From an uncultured Clostridia bacterium (lineage in GTDB: Bacteria > Bacillota > Clostridia > Christensenellales > Aristaeellaceae): a stretch of 32,941 nt of DNA. Within the stretch, counting starts at the first letter, position 1; the number at the start of each line of letters is the position of its first letter. Below, piece after piece: positions 25,756 to 32,768 of this stretch. The stretch is taken from contig CAMHSI010000016.1 of NCBI GenBank assembly GCA_946187775.1, positions 1 to 32,941 of the forward strand, written 5' to 3'. Position numbers and translations under genes: made by a program. Under the pieces are notes generated by a model, which was not told the DNA's origin, did not search any database, and worked only from the letters and a program-made list of their open reading frames with translations.

Positions 25756-25785
25756 GATCATCCCTCCGGAAATCAAACTGCCGGA

Positions 25786-25814
25786 ATTATAGCACAAAAC
25801 CGCGGATGGGACAA
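25786..25814 (-). promoter_or_regulatory. Promoter of the DUF5058 operon
   Basis: On the minus strand, -35 TTGTCC (25809-25814), 17-base spacer, perfect -10 TATAAT (25786-25791). Confidence 0.72.
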
Positions 25815-25869
25815 AAGGCGGAAGGCGCCGTTTTCCGGAAGCTATACGCCCGGGACAAAACAATATACC

Positions 25870-25898
25870 TTGATTTTTTCATCGCTGTAGAATATGAT
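25870..25898 (+). promoter_or_regulatory. Candidate promoter of the NHLM export operon
   Basis: -35 TTGATT (25870-25875), 17-base spacer, -10 TATGAT (25893-25898). It would give a leader of about 300 bases before the first clear gene at 26205. No nearer promoter of equal quality was seen. Confidence 0.6.
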
Positions 25899-26204
25899 AA
25901 TCAGGAACGAACCGCAACAGTGAGGGACAGCCCGGACGAGCGGCAGCCCCTGAAGGAATATACGGAGAAAACGGCCCGGGAAAGCGGAAACAGCTTCCAT
26001 TATTACGCGAGCCTGGCGGCAGGAAACAGCGTCATGGAGGAAAAGGGTACTACAAAGCCCTGGGCGAAAAAAGCCTGTATCAGAAAACGGCGCCGGATCC
26101 CCGGTGTTGAACGGACATACGGTGACTGTTCCCCTGCACCGGCGGGATTTCCGGCGCACAAGGAACGTTACCGTGTGTTTTATTGAAAGAAAGGACCGGT
26201 CGAA
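25899..26204 (+). other. Gene-less leader stretch before the NHLM operon
   Basis: No convincing gene lies here. One plus frame stays open from 25806 to 26186, but it has no ribosome site, begins upstream of the candidate promoter and has a low-quality Arg/Lys/Pro composition. I see GGAAACAGC repeated twice (about 25984 and 26020) and a modest hairpin near 26140-26160, but no riboswitch that I recognise. NHLP-type precursor leaders were looked for and not found. Confidence 0.5.
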
Positions 26205-26489
26205 ATGGAAAAGAAACCTGACGAAATGAAGAAGGAAGCTCCCGCCCCGAAGGACCGGGAGGGATCCATGAAGGGCCTGTTCAACCAGAAGAGCCTGGAG
26301 CGCATCAACGGGCCGGAGGAGCTGAACGACTATGTGCGGGTGACCTCTCCTTCGGTATGGATCGTGCTTGGAGCCATCGCGGTGCTGGTGCTGGGCCTGC
26401 TGGGATGGAGCGTCTTCGGCACGCTGCCCGTCCATGAGGCGGACGGCACCGTGAAAGAGGTACGGCCGATTTCCTTTATCATCAACTGA
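26205..26489 (+). CDS. HlyD-like stub of an NHLM secretion system (membrane anchor only)
   Basis: The 94-residue protein has a charged N-terminus, the stretch LFNQKSLERINGPEELNDYVRVTSP, and one membrane helix (about 51-73) followed by FGTLP and a short tail. It reads like the first 70 residues of the NHLM bacteriocin secretion protein (HlyD family, normally around 400 residues), with the coiled coil, lipoyl and barrel parts absent. The next gene begins 27 bases after the stop, so no remnant remains downstream. AAAGGA precedes the ATG. It may anchor the ABC exporters or dock a partner. The family link is from memory of the conserved N-terminus. Confidence 0.72.
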   Translation: MEKKPDEMKKEAPAPKDREGSMKGLFNQKSLERINGPEELNDYVRVTSPSVWIVLGAIAVLVLGLLGWSVFGTLPVHEADGTVKEVRPISFIIN

Positions 26490-26516
26490 TTGTATCAACA
26501 GGCGAGGAAAAGACAG

Positions 26517-28709
26517 ATGGCGAAGAATTCGATCCGGAAGCCGGTTGCCGGAAGGCGGGCCAGGCATGTTCCCGTGATTATGCAGATGGAGGCCACGGAA
26601 TGCGGCGCGGCCTCCCTGAGCATGGTGCTGGCGTACTACGGCAAATGGGTTACGCTGCAGCAGGCCAGGCAGGACTGCGGCGTATCCAGGGACGGCAGCA
26701 AGATGGGCAATATCATGCGGGCTGCCATCCGCTACGGCATGGAGGCAAAGGCCTACAGCATGAGCGTGGAACAGCTGCGCACGGGCGGCACCTTTCCCTG
26801 CATCCTCTACTGGGGCTTTAACCACTTCGTGGTCTGCGACGGCTTCCAGGGGGACCATGTGTGGCTGAACGACCCGGCGAAGGGGGAGGTCCGCCTCTCC
26901 ATGAAGGCCTTCGAGGAAGGCTTCACCGGCATCGTGATGATGCTGCAGCCCGGGGCGGATTTCCAGCCCTCGGGAAAGCGGCGCAGCATGGTGGGCTACG
27001 CGCTGGACAAGCTGAAGAGCAACCGGACCACGCTGTTTTTCGTCGCCCTGACCACGGCCATCATCTCCCTGCTGGGCATCCTGACCGCCGGGTTCTCCCG
27101 GGTATTCCTGGACCGTATGCTGACGGGGCTGGAGAAGGACTGGACCCGGCCCTTCCTGCTGCTTTTCGCCTGCGTGACCCTGACGCACCTGATGACAGCC
27201 TGGATCCAGGCCATCTATTCCCTGCGGCTGAAGGGGAAAATGGCCATCGAGGGCAACTGCAGCTACATGTGGAAGCTCCTGCGGCTGCCCATGGCCTTTT
27301 TCAGCCAGCACTATGCCGGCGACCTGCTCTCCCGGAAAAAGGAAAACGCGTTGATTGCGAAAAATATTACGGAAATCCTGGCGCCCATTGCCATCAACAC
27401 CATGATGATGGTGTTCTATTTCGTGGCGATGGTACGCTACTCCTGGCTGCTGACGGTGATCTGCGTGGGCGTTGTGGCGGCCCAGACAGCGTCGGCCCAG
27501 CTGATTTCCCGCCATCGGATCAACATCTCCCGGGTGATGCTCCGGGACCAGTCCAAGCTGGATTCCACCACCGTGTCTGCCGTGTCCATGATCGAGAGCA
27601 TCAAGGCCAGCGGCGCGGAGGACGGATACTTTGAACGGTGGGCAGGCTACCAGGCCGCCGCCAGCCGCCAGAACACCCGGTACCAGGAGCTGAATTATTA
27701 CATGGAGCTGATTCCGGGATTCCTTTCGGCGCTGCTGAATGTGTCGATCCTGGTGATCGGGATCCACCTGACGATCCGGGGGGATTTCACCTCCGGTATG
27801 ATCCTGGCGTTCCAGGGGCTGCTGGCTTCCTTTACCCAGCCGGCCAACACCCTGATCCGGTCCGCCCAACAGCTGCAGGAGATGCGGACCCAGATGGAGC
27901 GGGTGGACGATGTCATGAGCGCCCCCGAGGATCCGATGCTTCCCACCCGGGAGGCGGAGGCCGCGGCGGGAGCCGTGACGGAGGGCAAGCTGCGGGGCAG
28001 GATCGAGCTGCGGGACGTGAGCTTCGGCTATTCCCCGCTGGAGCCCCCGCTGATTGAGCATTTCAACATGGTGGTGGAGCCGGGAAAGAGCGTGGCCTTC
28101 GTAGGGGCCTCGGGCTGCGGCAAATCCACCATGACCCGGCTGATCACGGGACTGTACCAGCCCTGGGGCGGGGAAATCCTGCTGGACGGGAAGCCCCTGA
28201 AGGAGATTGACCACCGGGTGCTGACTGCCTCCGCCGCGGTTGTGGAGCAGGAAATCACCCTCTTTGAGGATTCGATTGAAAACAATATCCGGATGTGGGA
28301 TCCGACCCTGGAGAACTTCGAGGTGGTGCTGGCCGCCCGGGACGCCCGCATCCATGACCAGATCATGAAAAAGGAAGACGGATACCGGCACAGGATCCGG
28401 GAGGGCGGCGGAAACTTCTCCGGCGGTGAGCGGCAGCGCATCGAAATCGCCCGGGCCCTGGTGAAGGATCCCACCATCCTGATCATGGACGAGGCCACCT
28501 CCGCCCTGGACGCCCGGTCCGAGTATGAAATCACCCGGGCGATCCGGGACCGGGGCATTACCTGCGTCATCGTTGCCCACCGGCTTTCCACCATCCGGGA
28601 CTGCGACGAAATCATCGTCCTGGACCACGGAAAGATTGCGGAGCGCGGCACCCACGCGGAGCTGATGGAGGCCGGGGGCCTGTATCGGGACCTGGTAACC
28701 AGCGCCTGA
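26517..28709 (+). CDS. NHLM-type peptidase/ABC exporter (C39 peptidase, TMD, NBD)
   Basis: The 730-residue protein has three parts. Residues about 15-140 are a C39 peptidase with catalytic C29 (ATECGAAS), oxyanion Q23, H103 (FNHFVV) and D119 (NDP), so it looks active and should cut after double-glycine-type leaders. Residues about 160-450 form the six-helix transporter part. The ATPase has Walker A GASGCGKST (near 530), signature FSGGERQR (near 635) and Walker B ILIMDEATSALD (near 656). It fits the NHLM peptidase/ATP-binding exporter family. I start it at ATG 26517, 9 bases after GAGG; TTG at 26490 is less likely. The next gene is a second exporter. Confidence 0.93.
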   Translation: MAKNSIRKPVAGRRARHVPVIMQMEATECGAASLSMVLAYYGKWVTLQQARQDCGVSRDGSKMGNIMRAAIRYGMEAKAYSMSVEQLRTGGTFPCILYWGFNHFVVCDGFQGDHVWLNDPAKGEVRLSMKAFEEGFTGIVMMLQPGADFQPSGKRRSMVGYALDKLKSNRTTLFFVALTTAIISLLGILTAGFSRVFLDRMLTGLEKDWTRPFLLLFACVTLTHLMTAWIQAIYSLRLKGKMAIEGNCSYMWKLLRLPMAFFSQHYAGDLLSRKKENALIAKNITEILAPIAINTMMMVFYFVAMVRYSWLLTVICVGVVAAQTASAQLISRHRINISRVMLRDQSKLDSTTVSAVSMIESIKASGAEDGYFERWAGYQAAASRQNTRYQELNYYMELIPGFLSALLNVSILVIGIHLTIRGDFTSGMILAFQGLLASFTQPANTLIRSAQQLQEMRTQMERVDDVMSAPEDPMLPTREAEAAAGAVTEGKLRGRIELRDVSFGYSPLEPPLIEHFNMVVEPGKSVAFVGASGCGKSTMTRLITGLYQPWGGEILLDGKPLKEIDHRVLTASAAVVEQEITLFEDSIENNIRMWDPTLENFEVVLAARDARIHDQIMKKEDGYRHRIREGGGNFSGGERQRIEIARALVKDPTILIMDEATSALDARSEYEITRAIRDRGITCVIVAHRLSTIRDCDEIIVLDHGKIAERGTHAELMEAGGLYRDLVTSA

Positions 28710-28751
28710 CGCGCGGGGAAGCGGAGAAGGAAAAGCAGGGGGGATCGGCGA

Positions 28752-30932
28752 ATGAGCCTGATGAGCGACCAGATCGAAATCCGGGACGAGCTGGACCGGA
28801 AAGCGGTTTCGGACACCTTTTTTGAAATAGCCGGCACCGTTATGGGAAAGCGGACGCGGGAAGCCATGAAGCAGGACCGCGAGCATACCGAGGAGGCCGT
28901 TGAGGATATCCTGAAATACTACCATGTGAAGCCCCAGCAGGTGCCGGAGTCCGTGAAGGAATTTGACGACCTGCTGGAGTACCAGCTGCGCCCCGGCGGC
29001 ATCATGAAGCGCAAGGTCCGGCTGGAGGACAACTGGTACCGGGACGCGGCCGGGGCCATGCTGGGCACCCGGACGGACGACGGGAGCGTTGTGGCGCTGC
29101 TGCCCCTGGGTACCCGGCATTACTACATGGTGGACCACAAGCGGGGAAAGCGGATCCTCCTGACAAGGAAGACGAAGGATCTCATTGAACCGGAAGCCCT
29201 CCAGTTCTATAAGCCCTTTCCCAATGGGGAGATGACCCTGGGAAGCCTTCTCAAGTATATGCTCCAGCAGGTTGCCCCCGCCGACGTGGCCGCCCTGCTG
29301 CTGGCCGCCGTGGCGGTGATCCTGGTGGGAATGCTGATGCCGTGGCTGAACAACATGCTCTTTTCCGACGTGCTGGCCGCCGGCAGCTACCGGATGCTGC
29401 TGGGCATCGCCATCTTCATGGTGGGGGCCTCCCTGAGCGCCGTGATGTTCCGGACCATCAAATCGCTGCTGACCCTCCGGATCCAGACCCGGCTGAGCAA
29501 CAATATCTACGCCGCCACCATGATGCGGGTGCTTTCGCTGCCCGCCGGCTTTTTCAAGGACTACACCGCCGGCGAGCTGAGCAGCCGTATCCAGTATATG
29601 AACGAGCTGTGCTACCAGATCGTCAACGTCTTTTTCTCCACGGGCTTTTCCTCCCTGTTCTCCCTGATCTATGTGTTCCAGATCTCGGCCTACGCCCCGG
29701 CCCTGGTGTGGCCGGCGGTGCTGGTGGTGCTCCTGAACCTGGGGATCACCCTTCTGACGGTGGCGCTGCAGATCAGGACCGCGAAAAAGCGCATGGAGGC
29801 GGACAGCCGGGAGAGCGGCTTTGACTTCCAGCTGATCGGGGGCATGCAGAAAATCCGCCTGGCCGGCGCGGAAAAGCGGGCCTTCTCCCGGTGGGGACAT
29901 CTGTACGCCCGGGTGGCGCAGCTGACCTATGATCCGCCCTTCTTCCTGAAGATCAGCGGCGTGCTGAACCTGGCGGTTTCCCTGGTGGGAACGCTGGTGA
30001 TCTACGGCCTGGCCATCCGCAGCGGGGTCTCCGTTTCGGAGTATTTCGCCTTCAACACCGCCTACGGCACCATGAGCGGCGGCGTGATGGCGCTGGTGGG
30101 GGTGGCCCAGTCCATCGCTTCCATCCGGCCCCTGCTGGAGCTGGTGATGCCCCTGATGAAGGCCGTGCCGGAGCAGTCGGAAAACCGGAAGGTGGTTGAA
30201 TCGGTCACCGGCCGGATTGAGATGAACAACGTAACCTTCCAGTATGAGCCCGGGGGACGGAAGATCCTGGATGAAATGAACCTGACGATCCATCCCGGGG
30301 AATATGTGGCGCTGGTGGGCTCCTCCGGCTGCGGCAAGTCCACCCTGCTGCGGGTGCTGCTGGGATTCGAGGAGCCGCAGATGGGGGCGGTTTACTATGA
30401 CGGCCGGGACCTCCGGCGGATCGACGTCCGCTCCCTGCGCCGGAAGATCGGCGTTGTCATGCAGGACGGAAAGCTGTTCAGCGGCAGCATTTTCTCCAAT
30501 ATCACGGTGACGGCTCCCTGGCTGACCCAGGAGGACGCCTGGGAGGCGGCGGAGGTTTCCGGCCTGGCGGATGACATCCGCCAAATGCCCATGGGCATGC
30601 ATACCGTCATTACCGAAGGCGCGGGCGGCATCTCCGGCGGCCAGCGGCAGCGGATCCTGATTGCCCGGGCCGTGGCGGCCAAGCCGAAGATCCTGATTTT
30701 CGACGAGGCCACCAGCGCCCTGGACAACCTGACCCAGAAGAAGGTTTCCGAGGCCCTGGACAAGCTCCGGTGCACCCGGATTGTGATTGCCCATCGGCTG
30801 TCCACCATCCGCCAGTGCAGCAGGATCCTGTTCCTGGAGAACGGGAAGATCATCGAGGAAGGCACCTATGACGAGCTGATGGCGAAAAACGGCGCCTTCG
30901 CAAGGCTCGTGGAGCGGCAGCAGGTGGAATGA
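28752..30932 (+). CDS. NHLM-type ABC exporter, ATP-binding/permease protein
   Basis: The 726-residue protein has a cytoplasmic N-terminal domain of about 165 residues without a C39 triad, then six membrane helices and an ATPase with Walker A GSSGCGKST (near 523), signature ISGGQRQR (near 627) and Walker B ILIFDEATSALD (near 648). It matches the second, non-peptidase partner of NHLM bacteriocin export systems, which work as a pair with the C39 protein. A G-rich ribosome site precedes ATG 28752, 42 bases after the first exporter. No lanthionine synthase, nitrile hydratase-like precursor or other maturation gene is visible within the window. Confidence 0.93.
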   Translation: MSLMSDQIEIRDELDRKAVSDTFFEIAGTVMGKRTREAMKQDREHTEEAVEDILKYYHVKPQQVPESVKEFDDLLEYQLRPGGIMKRKVRLEDNWYRDAAGAMLGTRTDDGSVVALLPLGTRHYYMVDHKRGKRILLTRKTKDLIEPEALQFYKPFPNGEMTLGSLLKYMLQQVAPADVAALLLAAVAVILVGMLMPWLNNMLFSDVLAAGSYRMLLGIAIFMVGASLSAVMFRTIKSLLTLRIQTRLSNNIYAATMMRVLSLPAGFFKDYTAGELSSRIQYMNELCYQIVNVFFSTGFSSLFSLIYVFQISAYAPALVWPAVLVVLLNLGITLLTVALQIRTAKKRMEADSRESGFDFQLIGGMQKIRLAGAEKRAFSRWGHLYARVAQLTYDPPFFLKISGVLNLAVSLVGTLVIYGLAIRSGVSVSEYFAFNTAYGTMSGGVMALVGVAQSIASIRPLLELVMPLMKAVPEQSENRKVVESVTGRIEMNNVTFQYEPGGRKILDEMNLTIHPGEYVALVGSSGCGKSTLLRVLLGFEEPQMGAVYYDGRDLRRIDVRSLRRKIGVVMQDGKLFSGSIFSNITVTAPWLTQEDAWEAAEVSGLADDIRQMPMGMHTVITEGAGGISGGQRQRILIARAVAAKPKILIFDEATSALDNLTQKKVSEALDKLRCTRIVIAHRLSTIRQCSRILFLENGKIIEEGTYDELMAKNGAFARLVERQQVE

Positions 30933-31019
30933 CCGCCGAAAGCGAAAAGAAAGATCACACAGGGAAAGAGGCAGTGTGCAGACGGGCAGATCAAATGGAA
31001 TCCGGGAGGTGGAAAAGCG

Positions 31020-32768
31020 ATGAAAAGAAAGCTCTTCATGCTGGCTTTGGCCGTGCTGGCCGTGCTGGCGCTGGCCTGCGGGGCCGCGGCGGCCCAGGAG
31101 GCAGAGACCCCGAATACGACTGTAACCGAGCCGGCCCAGGCGGCGCCGGCAAAGGAGGCCGAAAGCCCGGACACCGGCGGCACCGGCAGCACCCAGGCGG
31201 TGCCGGCCCGGGAGGACGAAAACCCGAATACGAACGGCACCGATGCGACCCAGGAAGCGCCGGCCCAGGAGGACGAAAGCCAGAATACGAACGGTACCGA
31301 TGCGACCCAAGCGGCGCCGGCCCAGGAGAAAGTCATCCGGGAGGCGACCTGCGGGGAGGCAGGAACCAAAGAAGTTACCGACGCATCCGGAGCCGTAAAG
31401 GAAGTCACCATCCCGGCCACGGGGAACCATACCTGGGGGGACTGGCAGGCGGTCAAAGAGGCCACCTGCGCCGGGGAGGGAGAACGCACCCGGACCTGCA
31501 GCACCTGCGGGAAGACGGAAACAGAGAAGATCCCGGCGACCGACGACCACAGCTGGGGCGAGTGGGAAACCGCGAAGGAGGCCACCTGCACCTCGGATGG
31601 CAAACGCACCCGGACCTGCAGCACCTGCGGGAAGACGGAATCGGAAGCCATCCCGAAGGTGGATCACAGCTGGGGCGAATGGGAAACCGTGAAGGAACCC
31701 ACCTGCACCTATGAGGGAAAGCAGAAGCGGACCTGCGAAAGCTGCGGAAAGACCCAGAACCAGTCCGTGTCCCCGCTGGACCACAAGTGGAGTGCCTGGA
31801 AGATCATCCGGGAAGCCGGCTGCACCGAAAACGGAAAGCAGCAGCACACCTGCGAACGGTGCGACAAGCAGGAGTCCGTAACCATCCCAAAGACGGGACA
31901 CATCCCCGGGGAATGGACCGTGACGGAGGAGCCCACCTGCCGGAAGGGCGGAAAACGGGAAACCATCTGCACGGCCTGCGGCACGGTGATCAGGGAGAAG
32001 CTGGGCAGGACAGACCACGCCTTTGACGAATGGGAAACCGTAAAGGAACCCACGGAGTTCACAAGGGGAAAGGAACGTTCCGCCTGCAGGTACTGCGGGA
32101 AGAAGGAGACCCGGGATTTCTATCCGGAGGGCACCCTGGCCCGGGACCTGGAGAACGATCCCGGAAAAGTGAAGGAGCTGCAGGAGCTGCTCTCCGGTAT
32201 GTCCCTGTATTCCGGGGAGGCATCGGGAGAATTCGACAAGGATACTGCCACCGCGGTGAAGAAGCTGCAGAAATCCCTGAAGCAGAAGACGGACGGCGTT
32301 GCCTGGCCGGGGCTGCTGCGGATGCTGGGACTCTACGGCAACCTGGGGGAACCCGTTACCGACGATGTGGGCGAATACAAGCTGCAGCTGGCGGTGAAGC
32401 AGGTTTCCCCGGCGCAGGAGCGCTACGCCGCCGGGGATGAGCTGGACTATGAGTGGACCCTGACCAACGCGTCCCAAAGGAACGCCGCTAAAGACCTGAA
32501 GCTGTATTCCTTCGGCGGACTGATGCCCGCGAAGAAAACCGACCTGGAGGCCGGGACCATCAGCGACGTTGAAAGGGGAGAAAGCGCCTCCGGCACCTAC
32601 ACCTACACGGTAACGGAGGAGGACGTCCTTTCCGGGAGGTTTACCTTCGGGTTCATCGTCCGGGGGAGGCTGGGCGGCTCGAAGGTGGAATCCAACAAGG
32701 TATGCTTCGTGAACGCGGCAGAGGCCGGAGGAATCGCCGGCCGGATTTCCGATTCGGCGCTTGAATAA
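31020..32768 (+). CDS. Secreted Cys-rich repeat protein with peptidoglycan-binding domain
   Basis: The 582-residue protein has a signal peptide (about 1-25; the sequence before C20 is a poor lipobox, so cleavage after AAA is likelier). Then come three 19-residue Pro/Ala/Thr repeats (41-97) and about seven repeats of roughly 33-40 residues with H-x-W-G-E-W, a lone Cys and a CxxC pair (107-365). A PG_binding_1-like domain follows (about 382-438, LQELLSG, GEFDKDTATAVKKLQ), and a beta-rich C-terminal domain (about 445-570). It may hold or sense metal or form disulfides on the cell wall. GGGAGG lies 9 bases before the ATG. It follows the NHLM exporters by 87 bases and is likely in their operon. 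Confidence 0.8.
   Translation: MKRKLFMLALAVLAVLALACGAAAAQEAETPNTTVTEPAQAAPAKEAESPDTGGTGSTQAVPAREDENPNTNGTDATQEAPAQEDESQNTNGTDATQAAPAQEKVIREATCGEAGTKEVTDASGAVKEVTIPATGNHTWGDWQAVKEATCAGEGERTRTCSTCGKTETEKIPATDDHSWGEWETAKEATCTSDGKRTRTCSTCGKTESEAIPKVDHSWGEWETVKEPTCTYEGKQKRTCESCGKTQNQSVSPLDHKWSAWKIIREAGCTENGKQQHTCERCDKQESVTIPKTGHIPGEWTVTEEPTCRKGGKRETICTACGTVIREKLGRTDHAFDEWETVKEPTEFTRGKERSACRYCGKKETRDFYPEGTLARDLENDPGKVKELQELLSGMSLYSGEASGEFDKDTATAVKKLQKSLKQKTDGVAWPGLLRMLGLYGNLGEPVTDDVGEYKLQLAVKQVSPAQERYAAGDELDYEWTLTNASQRNAAKDLKLYSFGGLMPAKKTDLEAGTISDVERGESASGTYTYTVTEEDVLSGRFTFGFIVRGRLGGSKVESNKVCFVNAAEAGGIAGRISDSALE
31140..31310 (+). repeat. Three 57-bp coding repeats (19 residues)
   Basis: Three direct copies encode AxPAxExExxxTxGTxxTQ-type units; the last two are nearly identical in DNA (AATACGAACGG...GCGACCCA at 31227 and 31284). 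They form a flexible low-complexity linker after the signal peptide. Confidence 0.85.
31400..31760 (+). repeat. 120-bp-period Cys repeat units in DNA
   Basis: A 36-base stretch is identical at 31485-31520 and 31605-31640 (start CGCACCCGGACCTGCAGCAC), 120 bases apart, and diverged copies continue to about 32100. This suggests recent repeat duplication. Confidence 0.8.

Follow-up and report, generated by a model that had tools for sequence, protein, structure and literature searches.

The closest described relatives of the locus reported here are the NHLM/NHLP exporters, whose export triad is formed by the families TIGR03794, TIGR03796 and TIGR03797 in Haft et al. 2010 (PMC2887384). For HlyD itself, the review PMC4446572 reports that the N-terminal cytoplasmic helix is needed for activation of the HlyB ATPase; the same review states that Gram-positive adaptors, expected to have no hairpins, do have them, and that those of bacteriocin exporters are extremely large. 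BesA has no hairpin, according to PMC4446572 and PMC8277102. Here we analyzed a stretch of 32,941 nucleotides from an uncultured, gut-type Clostridia bacterium (GCA_946187775.1), called the window, which is the whole of contig C16 in a 111-contig assembly of 63.6% completeness. The window encodes two ATP-binding cassette (ABC) transporters, ABC1 and ABC2, behind a very short HlyD-like protein, the stub; the two transporters make this unit an NHLM system, from which the adaptor departs. We consider it probable that this is an NHLM-type peptidase exporter whose HlyD partner has been cut down to the membrane part and that its cargo, a leader-bearing peptide, is encoded at another locus, the best candidate being a lanthipeptide on contig C73. 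The features are as follows.

25756..26204, no strand: intergenic region 5' of the stub, in which all small open reading frames (ORFs) score below zero for coding
26205..26489, forward strand: HlyD-like stub made up of an N-terminal segment, a single hydrophobic helix and a short tail at the C-terminus; 94 aa from 26205
26517..28709, forward strand: NHLM ABC1 with C39 peptidase, permease and ATPase; 730 aa, open frame 26490-28709
28752..30932, forward strand: NHLM ABC2 with permease and ATPase (ABC_membrane and ABC_tran, no Peptidase_C39); 726 aa
31020..32768, forward strand: Cys-repeat protein with PG_binding_1 and, by eye, a signal-like N-terminus; a neighbour whose membership in the unit is unsupported

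Both transporters score over the curated cut-offs, ABC1 with 898.4 bits against TIGR03796 (cut-off 853.3) and ABC2 with 722.2 bits against TIGR03797 (cut-off 709.4). ABC1 contains the Peptidase_C39, ABC_membrane and ABC_tran domains, and its C39 triad C29, H103 and D119, numbered from the ATG at 26517 (a more likely start than the frame start at 26490), is invariant in all ten aligned ABC1s. Residues 20-723 of ABC1 match the solved structure 4ry2, an 'ABC-type bacteriocin transporter' (E 1.4e-93), and ComA is matched as well; we take this exporter class to be that of PCAT1 and ComA. ABC1 and ABC2 probably pair with each other, and C39 cleavage and ABC export by the unit would follow from the families to which they belong.

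The stub matches TIGR03794 at positions 1-45 of 421 only (34.7 bits, cut-off 156.2), and no full-length HlyD partner scored over the TIGR03794 cut-off in any of 45 genomes of the genus. Using the stub as a query, a match was obtained in 33 of these genomes (E up to 0.01), and in five besides the window's own it extends to the last residue. Together with the same full-run stub in three named loci of metagenome-assembled genomes (MAGs; L087, L088 and L141), this gives nine stub loci in total; the class search gave two more frames of stub size that were not counted, one cut by a contig end (G632:C40) and the other without a tail and with no NHLM ABC1 nearby (G355:C7). From window position 26268 the nine stubs align without an internal gap and share 18 invariant residues, the first residues being absent in L046, and all end in P-I-(S/T) followed by N as the last residue. 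Since the longer adaptors mostly have this type of ending too, the stub looks, from these alignments, like an anchor plus tail with the middle taken out; about 23 residues follow the hydrophobic stretch. The start is likely the ATG at 26268, which lies behind GGAGGG, coincides with the start point of the relatives and gives 73 aa, and 26205 is a possible start as well. A sequence-only reading of this DNA had placed four genes at these positions and recognized two complete NHLM exporters, one with an intact C39 triad, and the ORF coordinates, scores and triad agree with it. It had also equated the stub with the N-terminal anchor of the usual HlyD, which holds with the length refined, and its surprise at the stub was justified. 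Stub length, which it had proposed to compare among relatives, is conserved, and the case that it named against itself, full-length HlyD in most relatives with a frameshifted stub, failed.

The stub, a conserved adaptor with next to no soluble domain, ends a graded size series. Adaptor frames have 418-453 aa in three proteobacterial loci, 272-330 aa in Streptomyces and some Clostridia, 132-209 aa in 27 of 37 genus loci and 64-76 aa in the stub group; an adaptor search across 44 loci gave a match in 30. A 137-aa adaptor, when modelled, is predicted to have a barrel resembling that of membrane fusion proteins (MacA, BesA), with no lipoyl domain or hairpin. When the adaptor profile was compared by sequence with solved structures, only chance-level matches were returned (best E 0.52). 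The TolC family (PF02321) was found in none of the 45 genus genomes and in 7 of 14 controls. In a Nitrospirales MAG (L107, 9352-9943), an NHLP-like leader peptide frame (by eye), a 64-residue anchor-only frame without a tail and an ABC1 follow one another in this order; the middle frame matches the adaptor weakly (E 0.00013) and could represent either another anchor-only adaptor that arose independently or a gene that is broken. A stepwise stripping of the HlyD adaptor, with loss of hairpin, lipoyl domain and beta-barrel down to a natural anchor-only form whose role is to dock to the ABC exporter and activate it, would fit this series; docking and activation would then be separable from conduit building, and leader peptides would be served in trans. 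We propose this tentatively, with a chance just short of even. Other arrangements of short adaptors were also observed. Contig C4 of the same assembly carries a 161-aa short HlyD adaptor (L048, 9098-9583) with no NHLM transporter beside it, in a neighbourhood whose genes have relatives in L053 downstream of a complete NHLM set; it may be a leftover or a trans-acting adaptor. In L056 (8652-9621) and L183 (8684-9601), two short HlyD adaptor genes stand in tandem before one ABC1.

The relationships of the exporters were examined with an ABC1-only tree of 56 ABC1s (FastTree) and a joint ABC1+ABC2 tree of 48 rows (quick LG+G4). For the joint tree, seven members of the 56-ABC1 set were removed (L061_2, L094, a duplicate of L193, L099, L101, L103, L104 and L143), L141 was added, and L196 and L100 were left out for their long branches. 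In the joint tree the nine stub loci form a single clade (SH-aLRT 95), with the window next to L044 and L045.

No NHLP or Nif11 precursor or maturase is recognizable beside the window exporter. Between 22.7 and 32.9 kb, a scan of 116 ORFs (35-260 aa) revealed no double-glycine-type motif following a start codon, while the same scan recovers the known peptides of L044, L046 and L047. When the whole window was scanned under conditions on coding score and ribosome site, the two matches obtained both fell within called genes. A stricter leader motif misses the L044 and L047 peptides, and a looser one was used over the nine stub loci; it matched 4 of 1260 ORFs, namely the three known peptides and a 253-aa frame in L141, which was rejected as a chance frame with a negative coding score. 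A hidden precursor in the window was found neither by coding score nor by the strict or looser motif. A leader-type peptide adjoins the unit in three of the nine stub loci, L044 (79 aa), L046 (91 aa) and L047 (86 aa), and the peptide gene of L044 and L046 occupies the region corresponding to 25756..26204 of the window. Within the stretches fetched for the 37 genus loci, ten have a double-glycine-type precursor, ten have a conserved small peptide of another kind together with an extracytoplasmic function (ECF) sigma factor, and 17, the window among them, have neither kind, one of these (L178) having LanM and a radical SAM protein; three chance motif matches (window, L056 and L059) were set aside by eye in this count. 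Small genes with the leader motif amount to 17 of 82 near exporters vs 8 of 115 far from them, which is weak support because exporters were the basis on which the loci had been selected, and seven of the eight far genes come from two loci that had been picked for precursors or LanM. Leader-type peptides in L241 (11980-12654), L242 (1751-2544), L061 (2681-3647) and L047 (9392-9652) have Cys-pair cores like small zinc ribbons, unlike typical lanthipeptide cores.

Most likely, the window exporter carries a leader-bearing peptide whose gene lies elsewhere in the genome. When its own genome was searched with the Nif11 leader model, a weak, full-length match was found on contig C73 (E 0.024). This putative precursor has 119 aa and a core with three Cys, and it is followed by LanM, which exceeds the cut-off of its model TIGR03897 (367 bits, cut-off 304), and then by a radical SAM/SPASM protein. 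No exporter is encoded on this 7.4-kb contig, whose end lies 263 bases before the precursor, and C39 domains occur just twice in the assembly, once in the window and once on contig C13; the peptide would therefore be served by the window exporter, the C13 exporter or an unassembled one. Relatives of the precursor in L060 directly follow an adaptor, ABC1 and ABC2 set. The Nif11-type lanthipeptide of C73 is the best candidate cargo in the assembly. A precedent for an unlinked layout may be seen in genome G002 (98% complete, two contigs), which has one NHLM ABC1 among the best 43 of 118 candidates, no precursor motif in 19 kb around this ABC1 (L050) and no LanM; a single small peptide from the sigma-linked family is encoded about 67 kb from ABC1 and is only a candidate cargo.

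This sigma-linked family is a conserved peptide of 60-80 aa running from LFD[FY]Q[KR] to AAG (present in 34 of 35 distinct copies) with a variable hydrophilic tail, often, not in every copy, directly before an ECF sigma factor gene. It occurs in L011 on the assembly's own contig C13 (5014-5199 and 5203-5694), in L197-L226 and in several of L227-L238, and altogether in 30 of the 45 genus genomes. A short HlyD adaptor and this peptide occur together in 27 genomes, the adaptor only in 6, the peptide only in 3 and neither in 9 (p 0.0008, uncorrected for relatedness or completeness). A scan of one copy, that of L011, gave no match over the Pfam or NCBIfam cut-offs, and a secreted signal or a sigma regulator are candidate roles. 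Partner-switching genes (STAS, SpoIIE-type phosphatases, RsbW-like kinases and a MATE transporter fused to a HATPase domain) also stand beside NHLM exporters, in L011 (7024-10741), L043 (13856-16452), L047 (14099-16971) and L055 (1865-6666).

Several observations weigh against the reading proposed here. First, the ABC1-only tree puts the window on a long branch beside L192/L193, outside the stub clade; we prefer the joint-tree placement, which is not firm. Second, the C73 precursor stays under the Nif11 cut-off (14.9 vs 32.3), and the LanM-linked exporters in relatives (L060, L177 and L178) fall outside the stub clade, so that either the C13 exporter or an unassembled one may be the exporter of the C73 peptide. 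Third, six of the nine stub loci, including the window, have no adjacent precursor, and the peptides of L044, L046 and L047 are known by motif, none reaching a curated family cut-off. Fourth, the margin by which MacA and BesA exceed unrelated ATPase barrels in the structural comparison is only about one Z unit, and the orphan adaptor on C4 could serve the window exporter. Finally, if the Nitrospirales lineage of L107 has an outer membrane, loss of that membrane is not the sole cause of adaptor shortening.

The alternative that survives best is that the exporter has a double-glycine peptide of its own, left unmodified, whose gene is unrecognized or unassembled, as L044 and L047 suggest, and that the C73 lanthipeptide leaves by another exporter. 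The adjacent peptides in L044, L046 and L047 occur without LanM or radical SAM in the fetched stretches, the assembly is far from complete and the LanM-linked exporters lie outside the stub clade; however, the positions that the relatives use, before the stub and in the gap between stub and ABC1, are visible in the window and empty. We regard this as a substantial possibility, if not the expected outcome. A repurposing of the ABC pair for something other than a leader-bearing peptide would agree with the stub loci that have no precursor alongside, but it is improbable with an invariant C39 triad and with leader-type peptides adjoining three stub loci. Still less probable is a decayed HlyD gene in a unit being lost. 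The long branch of the window ABC1 and the orphan adaptor on C4 would fit decay, whereas the shared ends and invariant residues of nine gap-free stubs disfavour a frameshift, the stub has the sole positive coding score among the upstream ORFs, ABC1 and ABC2 are intact, and the stub stop lies 27 bases from the ABC1 start, which leaves no room for an HlyD remnant. That the downstream Cys-repeat protein is the cargo is hardly credible; it does lie on the same strand 87 bases past ABC2, but it begins with a Sec-like signal (by eye) and clusters with nothing else among the 22 loci compared.

As to the cargo, the sequence-only reading had seen no precursor or maturation enzyme, which agrees with the motif scan and with non-coding scores for all upstream ORFs except the stub. 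Export of an unlinked peptide was the better-supported half of its guess, given the Nif11-like precursor, LanM and radical SAM protein on a contig with no exporter, and a repurposed family is not needed. The search that it suggested for short leader-bearing proteins elsewhere did find the C73 precursor, under the model cut-off, and its nearest cargo candidate, the Cys-repeat protein, is unsupported. This protein (31020-32768) has H.WG.W...TC...C..CGK repeats and PG_binding_1 and is probably secreted; a tRNA-Ser comes next at the contig end, which is 173 bases past the gene, and Rfam at gathering thresholds gave two tRNAs only.

In the proposed leader-peptide export in trans, ABC1 and ABC2 would form the pump, and the C39 domain of ABC1 would cut the leader at a double-glycine-type site during export. 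The HlyD partner would have no beta-barrel, lipoyl domain or hairpin and would retain only the part that shares the membrane with the transporter; where a cell has no TolC-type channel, there would be nothing for the lost domains to interact with. Because the stub retains the segment corresponding to the HlyD cytoplasmic helix and the membrane helix, we infer that it docks to the transporter and activates the ATPase, and the cargo would reach the pump from a gene located away from it. The stub makes it testable what an adaptor does for an ABC exporter when no outer membrane needs bridging. Such units would be overlooked by genome mining that relies on the HlyD model or looks for a precursor adjoining the exporter, and no title or abstract in the searched open-access literature reports short NHLM adaptors.

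Compared with the known systems, the unit has both shared and distinct features. Like the NHLM triad, the window holds a C39 ABC, a C39-less ABC and a HlyD-like gene together, and a Nif11-like leader and LanM are encoded in the same genome; unlike it, the adaptor has 73-94 aa vs about 421, and no precursor lies beside the window copy. The stub shares the N-terminal anchor of HlyD with the membrane fusion proteins (HlyD, MacA and BesA), and the 137-aa relative has a predicted MacA/BesA-like barrel, whereas the stub itself has no hairpin, lipoyl domain or barrel. With the Nif11-leader class II lanthipeptides, the genome has in common the C73 precursor with its Nif11-like leader, below the cut-off, and a LanM over the cut-off, but the C73 cluster is unlinked to the window and its tie to the window exporter is putative. 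Finally, ABC1 matches 4ry2 and ComA as a PCAT1/ComA-type peptidase-containing ABC exporter would, whereas the window unit additionally has another ABC gene, which lacks the peptidase, and a stub of an adaptor.
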